From assembly GCF_900637855.1 (NCBI RefSeq), contig NZ_LR134440.1, positions 1,984,001 through 2,048,000 on the forward strand: a stretch of 64,000 bases of DNA, given 5' to 3'. Under the pieces are notes generated by a model that was given only the letters and a program-made list of their open reading frames with translations, made no database searches and had not been told where the DNA came from. The stretch comes from Neisseria animaloris (GTDB taxonomy: Bacteria; Pseudomonadota; Gammaproteobacteria; Burkholderiales; Neisseriaceae). Both the position numbers and the translations under genes were made by a program. Below are positions 10,144 through 51,484 of this stretch, piece after piece (the first letter of the stretch is position 1; each line of letters starts with the position of its first letter).

Positions 10144-10409
10144 ATGCCGATACGCCGCCGCATGTGCAGCATGAAGCTGGCGTTTTTCTTTTCGCTGTTT
10201 TTCATTATGGGCGTGGCGGCGGCTTATGAAATCATCGAGGAGCAGTATGCCGTGCTGGAAGGCGGGGGGCAGGTATCGGGTTTTTAGGTTCGCAAGGCGA
10301 CATTTGAGATATCCGGAAAGATATGTCGGCAGATACGCTGGGCGCGCTGACGGCACCGGCGGTCTGTCTGCTTGCCCGACCCGACAAGCGTATGAAAACC
10401 GTCCCGTAA
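10144..10409 (+). pseudogene. Remnant of a DUF2238 (YjdF-like) membrane protein
   Basis: The frame from 10144 encodes MKLAFFFSLFFIMGVAAAYE and then IIEEQYAVLEGG, up to a TAG at 10285. Shifting one base at the TTTTT tract restores FLGSQGDI, then a TGA where the family has Trp, then DMSADTLGALTA. This is the recognisable end of DUF2238 proteins (YEIIEW...GSQGDIWD...DMxxxxxGA). One frameshift plus one nonsense change make it a pseudogene. Confidence 0.6.
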
Positions 10410-10492
10410 TGGTTCAGACGGCCTCTTTTCCTTAATGTGTATGTGTAAGGATGCAAGCCGTTTGTTTTATCCCTTCCGATTAAGGAAATATC

Positions 10493-12235
10493 ATGCAAGA
10501 ACTGCAAAAAACGTTTACAGCTTCCGACGGCACGGAGCTGTTTTACCGTTACCGCCCGGCTGAGAACGGCAGCGGCGATAAGGCCATCGTTTTATTCCAC
10601 TGCGGGCACGAGCACTCGGGCCGCATGATGTTTGTGGCCGACGAGCTGGGTTTAGACGACTTCGCCTATTTCGCGTGGGATGCACGCGGCCACGGCCACA
10701 GCCCCGGCGAGTGCGGAGACAGCCCCGGCTTCGGCACATCGGTTGCCGACATCCAAAGTTTTATCCGGCACATCAGGTGCGAATACGGCATCAAACCTGA
10801 AAACATCGGCGTGATCGCCCAAAGCGTAGGCGCGGTGCTGGTGTCGGCATGGTTGCATGATTATGCGCCCAAAATCCGCTGCGCCGTGCTGGCCTCGCCC
10901 GCATTCAAGGTTAAACTTTATGTGCCGTTTGCCCGTATCGGCCTGAAACTGATGAAGAAATGGCGCGGCAACTTTTTTGTGAACAGCTATGTTAAGTCGC
11001 ACTACCTGACCCATGATCGAGAGCGGCAGCGGAGCTACGACAATGACCCGCTGATTGCACGTGCCATTTCCGTGCGTACTCTTTTGGGCCTGTATGATGC
11101 CGCCGAGCGCGTGGTGGCCGATGCCCAAGCCATTACTACGCCGATACAGCTGTTGGTGTCCGGCAGCGATTGGGTGGTGCATCACAAACCGCAGCACGAT
11201 TTCTACAACCACCTCGGCAGCCACATTAAAGAACGCCATATTTTCAGCGGCTTTTATCACGATACTCTTGGCGAAGAGAACCGCGAATTGGCGTTTGTGG
11301 AAGTGCGTCGTTTTATCCGCGAACGCTTCGCCGAAGCACTGGAAACCGTAGACGTTACCTGCGCCCATATTCACAGCGACAGCCGCCGCGAGGCCGACGA
11401 ACTGGCCACGCCGTTGTCGCCGTTTACCTTGCACGGCGCATATTGGGCGGCTCTGCGCTGGTTGGTCGGACTCGGTGCCAACTGGAGCGAAGGCTTGAGA
11501 ATCGGCAAAGAAACCGGCTTTGATTCCGGCAGCACCCTTGATTATGTGTACCGCAACCAACCGCAAGGTACCAATAAATTCGGCGAAGCAGTCGATAAAT
11601 ATTATCTGAATGCCATCGGCTGGCGCGGTATCCGCCAACGTAAAGAAAACATCGGTAAAGCCATTCAGACGGCCTTTGCCCGATTGCGTGAACACGGCAA
11701 ACCCTTGCATGTGTTGGACATCGCTTCAGGTCGCGGCCGCTATGTGCTTGATGCGCTTACTGCCGAAAGCTTGCCCGACAGCGTGCGCCTGCGCGATTAC
11801 AGCTCTGTAAACGTAGAAGCGGGGCGCAAGCTGATTGCCGAACGTAAGCTGCAAAACATTGTTATTTTTGAAGAGGTTAATGCCTATAACCGCGCCAACT
11901 ACCAAAACCTCAACCCGCGCCCCACGCTCGGTATCGTTTCCGGCCTGCACGAGCTTTTCCCCGATAACGACTTGATTATGCGTTCGCTCAAAGGCTTCCG
12001 CGATGCACTTGAATACGGCGGCTGCCTTATCTACACCTGCCAGCCGTGGCATCCGCAACTTGAAATGATTGCCCGTGTGCTGACCAGCCACAAAGAAGGC
12101 AGCCCCAATTGGGTAATGCGCCGCCGCAGCCAGCAGGAAATGGATCAGCTGGTGGAGCTGGCGGGCTTTAAGAAAATCCACCAATGGATTGATGAAGACG
12201 GTATCTTTACCGTGAGTTTGGCCGTGAAGGAGTAG
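10493..12235 (+). CDS. Alpha/beta hydrolase-methyltransferase fusion (YnbC-like)
   Basis: A 580-residue two-domain protein. Residues 1-300 form an alpha/beta hydrolase of the monoacylglycerol-lipase type: AWDARGHGHSPG, nucleophile elbow AQSVGA in place of GxSxG, and a late His in FYHDTLGE. Residues 310-580 hold a class I SAM-dependent methyltransferase with HVLDIASGRGRYVLDAL as the cofactor loop. The fusion matches E. coli YnbC (about 585 residues), part of ynbABCD, a putative phospholipid-headgroup locus. Here the flanking genes are remnants (CDP-alcohol transferase upstream, CdsA-type downstream), so its pathway may be lost. Substrates are unknown. Confidence 0.85.
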   Translation: MQELQKTFTASDGTELFYRYRPAENGSGDKAIVLFHCGHEHSGRMMFVADELGLDDFAYFAWDARGHGHSPGECGDSPGFGTSVADIQSFIRHIRCEYGIKPENIGVIAQSVGAVLVSAWLHDYAPKIRCAVLASPAFKVKLYVPFARIGLKLMKKWRGNFFVNSYVKSHYLTHDRERQRSYDNDPLIARAISVRTLLGLYDAAERVVADAQAITTPIQLLVSGSDWVVHHKPQHDFYNHLGSHIKERHIFSGFYHDTLGEENRELAFVEVRRFIRERFAEALETVDVTCAHIHSDSRREADELATPLSPFTLHGAYWAALRWLVGLGANWSEGLRIGKETGFDSGSTLDYVYRNQPQGTNKFGEAVDKYYLNAIGWRGIRQRKENIGKAIQTAFARLREHGKPLHVLDIASGRGRYVLDALTAESLPDSVRLRDYSSVNVEAGRKLIAERKLQNIVIFEEVNAYNRANYQNLNPRPTLGIVSGLHELFPDNDLIMRSLKGFRDALEYGGCLIYTCQPWHPQLEMIARVLTSHKEGSPNWVMRRRSQQEMDQLVELAGFKKIHQWIDEDGIFTVSLAVKE

Positions 12236-45901: not shown

Positions 45902-46426
45902 ATGAAACTTAAAACTTTCGTCCTTATTTTATCTGCCTTATTGCTTGCTGCCTGTGGTAGCACCGCCAATGAAACCCAAACTCTGCACGACCAGCTTGCC
46001 GAGGCGCAAACTGCTGTCAAACTTTCCGCAGAAAACACGAAAAGGTTGGAAAGTACTTATTCCGATATCTATTTCGAACTGAACAGCCTGACTGTTGAGA
46101 ATTTCAAAGCTAAAGTAGCCAAAGGAGAAACGTTTTATGCCTATATAGGGCGGCCAAGTTGCGGGGATTGCAATGCATTCGAACCGTTGCTCAAACATTA
46201 TATCCGCGACCGCAAACTGCAAGACAAAATCTACTTTGTCAACGTTCATCGGTTAAATCAAGACAAGCCTGCTTGGGCTGAATTCAAACAGCAATATAAC
46301 TTAACAGGCACGCCTGTTTTGGCTAAATATGGGAAACGCCGTCAAATCAACAAACTTGATTTTGAGAATAAAGGGGGTATCAGTGCGGAAGATTTGGAAA
46401 AATGGCTGGGAATGAATGGATTGTGA
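45902..46426 (+). CDS. Thioredoxin-fold lipoprotein with CGDC
   Basis: A 174-residue lipoprotein: lipobox LLLAAC at about residue 18, a short coiled segment (about 27-55), then a thioredoxin-like fold with YAYIGRPSCGDCNAFEPLL and the cis-Pro GTPVLAKYG. The CxxC in GRPSCGDC resembles bacteriocin-transport accessory proteins (PedC/BrcD). It should act in the periplasm on disulfides. It lies just upstream of the exported four-gene cluster but is separated by 0.9 kb and a terminator. Confidence 0.75.
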   Translation: MKLKTFVLILSALLLAACGSTANETQTLHDQLAEAQTAVKLSAENTKRLESTYSDIYFELNSLTVENFKAKVAKGETFYAYIGRPSCGDCNAFEPLLKHYIRDRKLQDKIYFVNVHRLNQDKPAWAEFKQQYNLTGTPVLAKYGKRRQINKLDFENKGGISAEDLEKWLGMNGL

Positions 46427-46614
46427 GCATTGAAAATGTTATAAGTTCTTTCAAAGAGTTACGCTATAGTGAGCAAGTGGAGGCACATTATATATTAAGT
46501 ATGTAGGTAACACGGAAATATGGTGGTTAGTGGTCTTGTAAATTTTTTATTTCGTATATGCTGATGAAAAGATTTTTCGGTTTTTCTTGAATTCATTATA
46601 TTGATGGCTATACA

Positions 46615-46652
46615 GGGCCGTGCAAGTTAGAAAATCTTGTACGGCTTTCTTT
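46615..46652 (+). terminator. Terminator before the AT-rich region
   Basis: GCCGTGCAAG (46617-46626) pairs with CTTGTACGGC (46636-46645, one G-T pair), followed by TTTCTTTAT. Confidence 0.75.
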
Positions 46653-47366
46653 ATAATTAATATGGCAATAATAATTATATGTAAATATATTAATGATTTT
46701 AGTGCCAAGAAATAATATAACAGATGATTTTTTATTTTGGTAAAGATGATTATTTCTTATATACAATGATTTACAGGTAATAAAAATGCTGCAAACAGAT
46801 GAAATAGCATAATATGGGAAAATAAATTATGTAACCATAAAGTAATTAAATTAAGAGCATCAACTCTAATATAATTTAATGGTTATATTTTCTTTTTTTT
46901 ATATTTTTTTGTCTTAAAATAGAAAAGTAAAATTAAATAATGTTAAATTTAGTTTAAATTCTCATACTTTTTAAAGAGTTCCTTATAAAAATACTTTAAA
47001 TAGTAATATTTAGTTATTAAACTACAACTCAATATGCATGAGGCGTGATGAAGAATGTTCATGCCTTATGAATATAAAACTCCATATAATAAAATTCCTA
47101 TATCATATATTGATAACGAAAATTAATATTATTTATGTTATAGAAATTTTTTTAGACTGTTCTATAATTCACTCAAGAAATCAATTGAACACATTGAATT
47201 AAATGATACTTTATAGGTGTTGTTGTGATTTGGTATGGCTCAGTTGGTTTCTTAAATGTCGGGAGTCTTACAATCTCCTTTGTAACTGACCGTTTAAAGC
47301 ATGCAAAATAAACCGTTTGGCATGAATGGTCTGCTTATGAAAACTGTCTATTAAGGAATATATATC
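46653..47366 (+). promoter_or_regulatory. Long AT-rich leader/promoter of the exported cluster
   Basis: About 700 bases, the most AT-rich part of the window, with no credible gene. Two possible RNA structures stand out: a nested hairpin at 47037-47070 (CATGAGGC...GCCTTATG with inner ATGAA/TTCAT), and a stem TCAGTT (47240) / AACTGA (47284) enclosing GGAG/CTCC. AAGGA lies nine bases before the ATG at 47367. The length is compatible with complex control. Confidence 0.45.
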
Positions 47367-47753
47367 ATGAAAAATAAATTTGTTTCTGCTGTTGTCGTAT
47401 TGGCCGGTTTGGGTCTGAGTGCTTCTGCTTTTGCTGCAGGTTCATTTGCACAATCGGCATTGATTGAAGACCAAGCGCATCTGACTATTAGAGAAGGTGT
47501 TTTTAACGTCCAAGGTATTAACGTTTTAGATGCCGGTGGGAAAAGCCTTGACAATGTAGAACAAGCGGTAGTGGGTAAAACTCTGAATCTGCAATTGCAA
47601 GATGCAAATTACTCCGTTCAAGGTGCGAACGTGGTAAATGCAGCTACTAAAAACAGCAAAGTTGAGCAAGATGCCTTTTTTGATCGTGTAAGCCTGCACG
47701 TAAAAGGCGGTGGTTTCAACACTCAAGGTGTTAACGTAATCACTCTGCAATAA
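47367..47753 (+). CDS. Secreted three-repeat protein, candidate fibre subunit
   Basis: A 128-residue exported protein: signal peptide to about residue 23 (SASAFA). The mature part consists of three units of about 36 residues, each with a beta-rich segment and a closing motif: FNVQGINVLDA, YSVQGANVVNA, FNTQGVNVITLQ. The alternation of hydrophobic residues with conserved Gln-Gly-x-Asn recalls curlin repeats (QxGxxN), although it is not a standard curlin. No Cys. First of four exported proteins on one strand. The amyloid or fibre role is inference. Confidence 0.65.
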   Translation: MKNKFVSAVVVLAGLGLSASAFAAGSFAQSALIEDQAHLTIREGVFNVQGINVLDAGGKSLDNVEQAVVGKTLNLQLQDANYSVQGANVVNAATKNSKVEQDAFFDRVSLHVKGGGFNTQGVNVITLQ

Positions 47754-47848
47754 ACACTAGCATGAGTTGATTTGAGTCGGCAGCAGCATTTATAGCTGTC
47801 TGCCGACTTGGTACATTTTAGTTTGCTAAAAAGAGAAGGGAGCATGAA

Positions 47849-48199
47849 ATGACTCAAAAATCAAGTTGGTTGCTATGCACATTGTTGATTGGCGGAATTT
47901 CTTTACCTGCTTTGGCAGAACATCCGGGGGTGCCCAAAATTCCTACCTCCAGAAGCCCGACTACTCCGGCTATGATGATTCATGCGGCTCGGGTACGGCC
48001 TCAAGAAACCAAAACTGACGGCTATCATGTTACTGATTCTACCGGTAGATCTTTTTACATAGATAATATTGTCAAACCCAGATGTGCCTTTTATGCGAAC
48101 CATGTGGACACTACGAATGTTCCCGGATATAAGGCAAATAAGATAAAAATTATAAGCAAAGCTTACATTGGAAAAGTGGATATTAAAGGCTGCCATTAA
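47849..48199 (+). CDS. Small secreted protein of the four-gene cluster
   Basis: A 116-residue protein with a signal peptide (cut after SLPALA, about residue 23). The mature 93 residues are basic and carry two Cys (PRCAF and the C-terminal KGCH), likely a disulfide. DGYHVTDSTGRSFYIDNIV and NKIKIISKAYIGKVDIKG suggest beta structure. I recognise no family. The position between the fibre-like protein and the CsgG-like lipoprotein suggests an export or capping role, comparable in place only to CsgE/CsgF. Confidence 0.6.
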   Translation: MTQKSSWLLCTLLIGGISLPALAEHPGVPKIPTSRSPTTPAMMIHAARVRPQETKTDGYHVTDSTGRSFYIDNIVKPRCAFYANHVDTTNVPGYKANKIKIISKAYIGKVDIKGCH

Positions 48200-48237
48200 C
48201 CGGTTTGGGTAAGCGACTTGATAGGAAATTAGGCACT

Positions 48238-49128
48238 ATGAAGCTTTCTTTTTTGAAAATGTTCAGTTTGGCTTTGCTGGCTACCGGTTGTTCTTCGCAA
48301 TCGATAGATTTTGTTTCTACTCGAGCTACTCCAAACTATACACAATCTTCATTGGATAAATCTTTGGATTGTGCGGGTAAATTACTGAGTGAGTTTTCTC
48401 CTAAAACCCCTCGGGTATCGCTGTTTATCATTTCCGGTATTACAGATGGCACTGTACGGCCGCAAGCATTGAGCAGCCCTTTGGCCGATTCGGGTGCGTT
48501 TCATTTGAGAACACGCATTCACGCATTGTTTCCTTCGACATTGGCAAAAATTGTTAAGGAAGAACCGATTATTTTTCAGGCGGTTAATGGGCCGATAGGG
48601 ATCAATGCATTTGGTTTGGTTAATACCGATTATTTGAAAGCGTATCAACAAGGGAATTTGGCTTCGATGAATTTCGGCCGCACTCATGCGGGGCTTCCTC
48701 CTGCTTCTTATTTGCAACTGATACCGATTGAAGGTGCTTTTACCCGCAATGATCATGAAGATTTTTTCAGTAGAGGACGAGGAGCGAATGCTTCGCAAAG
48801 TAAAGCCCGCGTGAACGGTAATTTGGATTACGGGATTAGTAATTCATCGAAAATCATCAGTTTTGCCGTGAATGTAACCGATCCTTCAACCAATACCATC
48901 GCTTATGCCACTTCTTTTGATTTAAAATATTCCGCAACCCGAAAAGAGTTTAGTTTGCAACTTTCCGGTACGGAACCCGGAATAGGGTATTCTTTCTCTT
49001 CAGGACAAATCGAAAGCGTGCAAAGTGCACAGCAAGTATTATTGGATGCCGCCAGTTTGTGGGTGGCTGATTTGGCTTATCCGGAATTGCAATTGCAGAA
49101 AAAATGCTACCGCAGTCAAATTTCCTAA
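48238..49128 (+). CDS. CsgG/HfaB-like outer-membrane lipoprotein (tentative)
   Basis: A 296-residue lipoprotein starting at ATG 48238 (an earlier TTG is unlikely); lipobox LLATGC at residue 17. The layout parallels CsgG: an early hydrophobic strand followed by a TDGT turn (RVSLFIISGITDGTVRPQAL), a helical segment, LQLIPIEGAFTRND, a Gly-rich loop, then paired strands KIISFAVNVTDPSTNTIAYA and a C-terminal helix (VLLDAASLWVADLAY). CsgG/HfaB proteins form the secretion pore for curli or holdfast-anchor subunits. The match is by pattern only and could fail in a profile search. Forms a unit with its neighbours (39-38-base gaps). Confidence 0.5.
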   Translation: MKLSFLKMFSLALLATGCSSQSIDFVSTRATPNYTQSSLDKSLDCAGKLLSEFSPKTPRVSLFIISGITDGTVRPQALSSPLADSGAFHLRTRIHALFPSTLAKIVKEEPIIFQAVNGPIGINAFGLVNTDYLKAYQQGNLASMNFGRTHAGLPPASYLQLIPIEGAFTRNDHEDFFSRGRGANASQSKARVNGNLDYGISNSSKIISFAVNVTDPSTNTIAYATSFDLKYSATRKEFSLQLSGTEPGIGYSFSSGQIESVQSAQQVLLDAASLWVADLAYPELQLQKKCYRSQIS

Positions 49129-49164
49129 CCCGTCCTTGAAATTGGCATAGGAAAGGATTTTTCG

Positions 49165-49707
49165 ATGATTTTCGGTTTTATCAATTCCCAAAAGCACCGT
49201 TGTTTGGGCATCTGTTTATCGGTAGCCGCCCTGACCGCTTGTGCACACATAGATGAACAGCCAGCTGCCGCAGCCGTTCAGTCCGGTAAGCAAGAGGCTG
49301 CCAACCAATTCGGCAAGGAACTTAAAGTTACACCGTCTTCAGCCCGTCCGGAACGGCATTATTCCGTTAAAAAAATGTCGCATCAGGCCAAGCAGATCGC
49401 CTCAGAATCCGGCCGTGGTAGTCCTTCAAGGGTGGCCAGCTCGGTAACGCCGGTTGTCAGTTCAGAAAAAGTGGCTGCATCAGCGCGGCAGTATGAAGCC
49501 AAAATTCGTCAGAACCCTCCCGTTAAAGATGTGGAAGATCTTGATGAAACAGAGCGTGAGGAATTACTGAAAAAAACTCTGCCGATGATAGGTCAATACG
49601 GTAATCTCGACTCCACCGGCTTGGGTACTCATCCCCGGGTAGAGGGGGAAGTTTATCAATCCAACAGACGGTTGATTTACCATATAGAATATTTGGAAGA
49701 GGAATAG
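49165..49707 (+). CDS. Lipoprotein of the four-gene cluster
   Basis: A 180-residue protein with lipobox AALTAC (about residue 26) and a preceding AAGGA site. The mature part is hydrophilic, rich in Ser/Ala/Lys and likely disordered to about residue 100, then acidic (DVEDLDETEREELLKKTL). No family recognised. Last gene of the exported cluster; a DUS dyad follows. It may be a periplasmic or outer-membrane accessory factor of the system. Confidence 0.6.
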   Translation: MIFGFINSQKHRCLGICLSVAALTACAHIDEQPAAAAVQSGKQEAANQFGKELKVTPSSARPERHYSVKKMSHQAKQIASESGRGSPSRVASSVTPVVSSEKVAASARQYEAKIRQNPPVKDVEDLDETEREELLKKTLPMIGQYGNLDSTGLGTHPRVEGEVYQSNRRLIYHIEYLEEE

Positions 49708-49756
49708 CCTGTACCTGTGTTTAGCCAGGTTGATCGGCAGAAGCTGCTTAAAGGTA

Positions 49757-49792
49757 GGGGCCGTCTGAAAACACTGTTTCAGACGGCTTCTT
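49757..49792. terminator. DUS-dyad terminator after the exported cluster
   Basis: GGGCCGTCTGAA and an inverse copy (last base varied) around ACACTG, then TTTTTAT. It serves the exported cluster and the convergent deacylase gene. Confidence 0.75.
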
Positions 49793-49793
49793 T

Positions 49794-50285
49794 TTATAAA
49801 TCGATGATTTGATAGTCGTAAGAAAGATGATTTAAGAATCGATACACGTCTTCCATTTTGATAAACACGGTATTGGTGTTTTCGTTTCCATGAAAAGTTA
49901 TCCGTTCTTGAGACAGTATTTCTTTGTCGAGATACACGTTAATGTCATGATCTTTATTGTTCAACAGGCCGAATAGCGATACCACGCCCGGCTCCAGCCC
50001 CATTTTTTCCTTTAACCGTTCGGCCGAACCAAAACTCAGTCTGTTTTCTTGCAGCAAGTCTGTTAGCTTTTCCATATCCAAACGCTTGGCATCATCTGTA
50101 ACCACTAAATAAAAGGCCGTTTTCTTGCGATTGGTTAAAAATAAAGTCTTGGTTCGGACCCCTTCTTTGCCTTCTATGAAACGGTCGGCTTCTTCGGTTG
50201 TTAAGGCCGGCGGATGTTGTGCGACATCATAATCAATGCCCATTTCTTTGAGCGATTTGAAAACATGATCAGATAAAGCACCCAT
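49794..50285 (-). CDS. YbaK/ProX-type aminoacyl-tRNA deacylase
   Basis: A 163-residue protein starting at MGALSDHVFKSLKEMGIDYD, seven bases after GAGGAGG. KTLFLTNRKKTAFYLVV and LEPGVVSLFGLLNNKDHDINVYLDKEI are characteristic of the PrdX/ProXp branch of YbaK-like proteins, which remove Ala from mischarged tRNA-Pro. Acts in the cytosol. Monocistronic. An ATG 105 bases further upstream lies in a different context and is not favoured. Confidence 0.9.
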   Translation of the reverse strand: MGALSDHVFKSLKEMGIDYDVAQHPPALTTEEADRFIEGKEGVRTKTLFLTNRKKTAFYLVVTDDAKRLDMEKLTDLLQENRLSFGSAERLKEKMGLEPGVVSLFGLLNNKDHDINVYLDKEILSQERITFHGNENTNTVFIKMEDVYRFLNHLSYDYQIIDL

Positions 50286-50455
50286 AAATCCTCCTCGTAT
50301 ATTTCTTTCTATGCTTGTTCGACCTTTACACGTTCGGGCCGATATAAAAAACCGGATAAATATACGGTACATTGCAATACAACAGCACAAATCGCGCTGT
50401 ATAAAGCAACCCCGTAAATATTATCCGGCTATTTTTAGCAGAGATTTCTTGCTGA

Positions 50456-51484
<1,029 letters not shown>

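Follow-up and report, generated by a model that had tools for sequence, protein, structure and literature searches.

A four-gene exported cluster of Neisseria animaloris encoding a lipoprotein with a predicted CsgG fold

The g1-g4 locus

We analyzed a 64,000-nucleotide stretch of the complete 2.34-Mb genome of Neisseria animaloris (assembly GCF_900637855.1, contig NZ_LR134440.1, positions 1,984,001 to 2,048,000), hereafter called the window, in which four plus-strand genes, designated g1 to g4, lie in tandem between positions 47367 and 49707, separated by gaps of 36-95 bases (Table 1). An earlier note on this DNA had described four consecutive genes with exported products only, namely a three-repeat protein, a small two-cysteine protein, a lipoprotein and an acidic lipoprotein, bounded by an AT-rich leader of 0.9 kb and a DNA uptake sequence (DUS) terminator. 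This layout was borne out by the open reading frames (ORFs), by their motifs, by signal peptides and lipoboxes, these two assigned by eye, and by the leader (74% AT) and the 15-pair hairpin that enclose the genes. The description of g4 as a lipoprotein holds in the window, where its lipobox reads LTAC, but the lipobox cysteine is missing from one of its four orthologs, that of the Neisseria genome G077 (L010:6828-7349; by eye), and lipidation is thus not a constant property of g4.

Table 1. Positions in the window of the four genes and their associated features.
Feature	Position	Strand	Description
Leader	46427..47366	+	74% AT, 0.94 kb; presumed promoter/regulatory region of g1
g1	47367..47753	+	128 aa, secreted repeat protein; proposed fibre/anchor subunit (substrate)
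g1 repeat motif 1, NVQGIN	47505..47522	+	
g1 repeat motif 2, SVQGAN	47613..47630	+	
g1 repeat motif 3, NTQGVN	47718..47735	+	
g2	47849..48199	+	116 aa, secreted, two invariant Cys; proposed accessory/chaperone
g3	48238..49128	+	296-aa lipoprotein, predicted CsgG fold; proposed outer-membrane secretion pore
g4	49165..49707	+	180-aa acidic lipoprotein; accessory seen at Neisseria loci only
DUS inverted-repeat terminator	49756..49791	+	15 pairs, T-rich tail

The signal peptide of g1 is read as ..SAFA/A, and the protein carries three [NS]xQGxNV motifs spaced 36 and 35 residues apart. When its residues 23-128 were shuffled 20,000 times, a single motif arose in 36 shuffles and more than one in none; this test addresses repetition and is not an independent prediction, the NxQ[GA]xN pattern having been derived from the tested proteins themselves. 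In g2, the signal peptide (..ALA/E) is followed by a mature part with both cysteines and the core YxVxxxxGxxxYxDNIxKPxC. The lipobox of g3 is LATGC, and its length of 296 residues is counted from an ATG, an upstream TTG at 48205 yielding 307 residues if used instead. The g4 block LPMIGQYGNxDSTGLG is invariant in all four orthologs. A DUF2789 gene (L010:7934-8203), encoded on the opposite strand, separates g3 from g4 in G077, where g4 may thus be transcribed separately.

All four ORFs behave as genes, since their orthologs in three other Neisseria genomes contain no internal stop and the ratio of nonsynonymous to synonymous substitution rates (dN/dS) was below 1 in all 10 computable comparisons out of 12 (Nei-Gojobori method, three pairs per gene, with some dS values near saturation). 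This ratio was 0.03-0.08 for g3, 0.11-0.19 for g2, 0.25-0.67 for g1, and 0.18 for g4, for which one of three pairs was computable. The earlier statement that the proteins closely match those of no known system agrees with the Pfam and NCBIfam scans, in which g1-g4 all remained below cut-off, with few weak rows. A search of 5.8 billion proteins returned five matches for g3 and four for g1, self and near-identical copies included; those with species names came from Neisseria dumasiana (g3) and from N. montereyensis and unclassified Neisseria (g1), and a near-identical g3 is present in Neisseria sp. MVDL19-042950. When the protein collection was searched with a g3 profile, scoring just the 7,999 candidates with most words in common, four distant relatives were added, one of them from a Pseudomonadales metagenome-assembled genome.

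Distribution in Neisseria and in another order

Profiles of g2, g3 and g4 identified the same four of 83 Neisseriaceae genomes (N. animaloris itself, G017, G077 and G024), all belonging to Neisseria, a genus sampled here by 46 genomes, and a single-sequence search with g1 found the same four. The g1 profile matched 10 of the 83 at E ≤ 0.01; the six extra matches (E 1.9e-4 to 0.009), which were set aside, reach no further than positions 1-64 of the profile, where the signal peptide takes up roughly the first 24. Gene order and strand, g1-g2-g3-g4, are identical at the four loci, which contradicts one of the refutations named in the earlier note, that the four genes would not occur together elsewhere. 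No match to g3 was found on plasmids. The flanks of the window are common to G017, whereas four tested flanking genes are missing from the 17-18 kb around the clusters of G077, with asparaginase-like and argD-like neighbors by eye, and G024, with lepB-like and ruvB-like ones; the cluster therefore occupies three chromosomal sites. Identity to the window's proteins (G017, G077 and G024, respectively) is 98, 79 and 81% for g3, 91, 53 and 53% for g2, 84, 43 and 42% for g1, and 89, 41 and 36% for g4. Judged by sequence, the putative machine part is constant and the putative substrate variable.

Outside the genus, a class-wide search was positive in three of 369 genomes, namely the window's own, G723 and G818, and a search within the order of G723 was positive in four of 109, adding G841 and G884. 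In the window's own order, 399 genomes were searched with two positives, both of them Neisseria. At the loci of G723, G818 and G841 (three of the four gammaproteobacterial loci in this other order), a repeat protein of about 470 residues with eight motifs is followed by a 143-residue protein, the g3 homolog and a second repeat protein of 231-237 residues (repeat-protein lengths as read). The 143-residue proteins of G723 and G818 are g2 homologs, matched by a hidden Markov model (HMM) of the four neisserial g2 sequences at E 3.3e-15 and 2.6e-14, compared with E 0.079 for the best of 2000 shuffles. In G884, the contig begins just 5' of the g3 homolog (L071:68-1405), and a repeat protein (263 residues as read) comes next. 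This g3 homolog has a peptidoglycan-binding SPOR domain at its C terminus (E 1.9e-12), suggesting that the pore could be tethered to the cell wall. The repeat proteins and g2 proteins scanned from these loci all fell below the Pfam and NCBIfam cut-offs. As a side observation, the large and small repeat proteins that bracket g2-g3 at three of the loci (e.g. L066:7162-8676 and 10381-11094) recall a major subunit and a nucleator.

The linkage of a repeat protein, g2 and g3 is thus conserved in two bacterial orders, and the order of subunit, accessory and pore lipoprotein proposed earlier recurs in both. Since this trio is found outside Neisseria with no g4-like ORF noticed by eye, we regard it as the core of the system. 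The common descent of the neisserial and gammaproteobacterial subunits rests on motif, position and operon, because sequence profiles of the repeat do not recover g1: an HMM built from 40 gammaproteobacterial repeat units gave at best 7.6 bits (the g1 of G024), a score exceeded by 3 of 2,500 shuffles, and less than 0 bits for the other three g1 proteins. The earlier idea of an undescribed neisserial four-gene fibre unit needs revision: among the open PMC matches listed, no title or abstract describes the g1-g4 cluster, but its core extends beyond Neisseria and g4 lies outside that core.

Relation to CsgG and the proposed export system

The predicted model of g3, of moderate confidence, matched the CsgG fold in Foldseek and VIA, although the match lists leave room for other folds. 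Family-level searches did not recover this relationship. The Pfam CsgG family (PF03783) gave no row for g3 in a scan to E 10; at E ≤ 10 it had no match in the window's own genome, compared with positives in 6 of 14 control genomes. The g3 homologs of G723, G818 and G884 likewise had no Pfam CsgG match, and one of five relatives, P0005, matched the family over residues 135-272 with E 0.022 and 14.5 bits, below the cut-off of 20.8. Searches of PDB sequences with g3, with g1, and with the g2 and large repeat protein of G723 returned sub-cut-off or chance-level rows only.

Profile-profile comparison was more informative. In a first hhalign run, nine g3 sequences scored 21.8 against CsgG (probability 1.1%), the highest of 20 shuffles reaching 17.8. 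The CsgG profiles were drawn from 16 of 30 CsgG-family loci and E. coli CsgG. Against seven curli-type CsgG proteins, thirteen g3 sequences scored 26.3 (probability 3%), more than any of 100 column shuffles (best 23.8); against ten other CsgG-superfamily proteins they scored 38.0 (probability 42%), where the best of 100 shuffles gave 18.9. Reversed profiles scored about 16 and a g2 decoy about 17, while curli CsgG, compared with the other CsgG proteins as a positive control, reached 113. These scores, set against shuffles and controls, argue that g3 belongs to the CsgG superfamily yet is distant from curli CsgG. Of the CsgG/HfaB-like layout ascribed to g3 from its letters, the likeness to CsgG is thus supported by predicted fold and widened profiles, and an unrelated family, which the earlier note had named as a refutation, did not appear in these comparisons.

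What the cluster has in common with curli is a CsgG-fold outer-membrane lipoprotein encoded alongside small beta-repeat proteins and a small accessory, all of them secreted. The differences are several. The curli repeat has a QxGxxN motif and a period of about 22 residues, whereas NxQ[GA]xN recurs here every 34-44 residues; QxGxxN is absent from all 11 repeat proteins, compared with five occurrences each in CsgA and CsgB, and neither g1 nor the gammaproteobacterial repeat proteins match the Pfam curlin repeat. The minimal curli repeat is given as X6QXGX2NX10 in the excerpt consulted of PMC3521004. In addition, g2 falls in no library family, and Pfam scans of the cluster proteins g2 and g4 and of the g2 proteins from the gammaproteobacterial loci listed neither CsgE nor CsgF. 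The cluster is therefore not a member of the curli family, given the position of g3 below the Pfam CsgG cut-off, the missing curli-repeat features and the lack of a detected CsgE or CsgF in the cluster. With Pseudomonas Fap, the cluster shares Q/N-containing repeats; FapC was the top Foldseek row for the predicted g1 model, at a non-significant level, and Fap exports through the trimeric barrel FapF, unlike a CsgG-fold pore.

By analogy, the likeliest reading is that the cluster works like curli or Hfa. We propose, with a probability of roughly 0.6, that its genes encode a CsgG-type system dedicated to export and assembly. From the export signals, the predicted g3 fold, the g1 repeats and the conserved linkage of repeat protein, g2 and g3 we infer the following scheme. 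After lipidation, g3 would reach the outer membrane and form a CsgG-like ring with a beta-barrel pore, through which g1, as a beta-repeat protein, would pass unfolded and then polymerize at the surface as a short fibre or serve as a tip or anchor; since g1 has three repeats only, the neisserial product may be short. The two-cysteine protein g2, periplasmic or surface-located and conserved together with g3, could escort or nucleate the subunit in a role like that of CsgE or CsgF, and g4 may be a Neisseria-specific outer-membrane accessory. Whether the trio amounts, more specifically, to an undescribed functional-amyloid nucleation and secretion system, made up of an NxQ[GA]xN subunit, the two-cysteine g2 and a far-diverged CsgG-fold g3 and common to a small number of Neisseria and to gammaproteobacteria from a different order, we consider evenly balanced.

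Among the alternatives, we regard as unlikely, but as the strongest of them, an anchor of the Hfa type, in which a repeat protein and a CsgG-like pore would form a small surface complex tethering a polysaccharide or another structure, with no long fibres. According to the excerpt available of PMC6707917, the Caulobacter proteins HfaA (CsgA-like), HfaB (a CsgG-like lipoprotein) and HfaD (adhesin-like) form an outer-membrane-spanning anchor. The likeness, drawn from description, lies in a CsgG-like pore paired with a short repeat protein of presumed amyloid-like nature, and the short, three-repeat g1 suits an anchor or tip. However, the first repeat protein at three of the four gammaproteobacterial loci, with its greater length and eight motifs, looks rather like a fibre subunit, and the ORF lists for the surroundings of the Neisseria loci (6-7.5 kb each), inspected by eye, showed neither a large adhesin nor polysaccharide genes.

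It appears more improbable still that g3, for all its CsgG/TolB-like fold, is a structural periplasmic lipoprotein that forms no pore, with g1 remaining periplasmic or being exported independently. Membership in a known CsgG-family lipoprotein operon unrelated to fibres is highly improbable: Neisseria does have CsgG-family lipoproteins (L030-L032), the gonococcal antigen NGO0834 is labelled CsgG-like in the portion available of PMC11306574, and a three-lipoprotein operon with a CsgG homolog in Acinetobacter genomic islands is described for A. baumannii in that of PMC3224125, but L030-L032 score 94-95 bits against Pfam CsgG, where g3 falls under the cut-off, the CsgG-family protein of G077, a genome that has both, lies about 1.3 Mb from its g1-g4 cluster, and g3 is accompanied here by repeat proteins and g2.

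CsgG serves as the model of amyloid secretion and also as the pore on which a major sequencing technology relies. A pore family so far removed from it, having a substrate and an accessory protein to itself, would make it possible to test what amyloid export cannot do without. If the proposed export and assembly system is real, Neisseria would gain a kind of surface structure not described for the genus among the open PMC matches listed, and its core of three small genes makes the proposal directly testable in the laboratory.

Leader, neighboring genes and terminator

An AT-rich leader precedes g1 at all four Neisseria loci (888-998 bases, 73-80% AT), including those at other chromosomal sites. 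The leaders of the window and G017 are 85% identical; elsewhere length and composition recur but sequence does not convincingly, the remaining pairs giving short AT-rich matches only, some of them inverted (best E 5e-7, complexity filter off). Promoter-like sites between 46300 and 49900 were at chance level (9 found, 10.3 expected), and an Rfam scan of 46000-50500 gave nothing at the gathering threshold.

Directly 5' of the leader lies a thioredoxin-fold lipoprotein gene (45902-46426), with Pfam thioredoxin-like matches above cut-off and, as best NCBIfam row, a PedC/BrcD disulfide isomerase below cut-off. It was considered as a partner for the g2 cysteines and rejected, being present at one of the three other loci, that of G017 with its common flanks. 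The ybaK-like gene adjoining the cluster at 49797-50285 (named by eye) has matches in three of the 46 Neisseria genomes, one of them partial, and was for this reason uninformative as a marker of empty sites. Between it and g4, the DUS hairpin is the longest of eight terminator-like sites, where 3.0 were expected.
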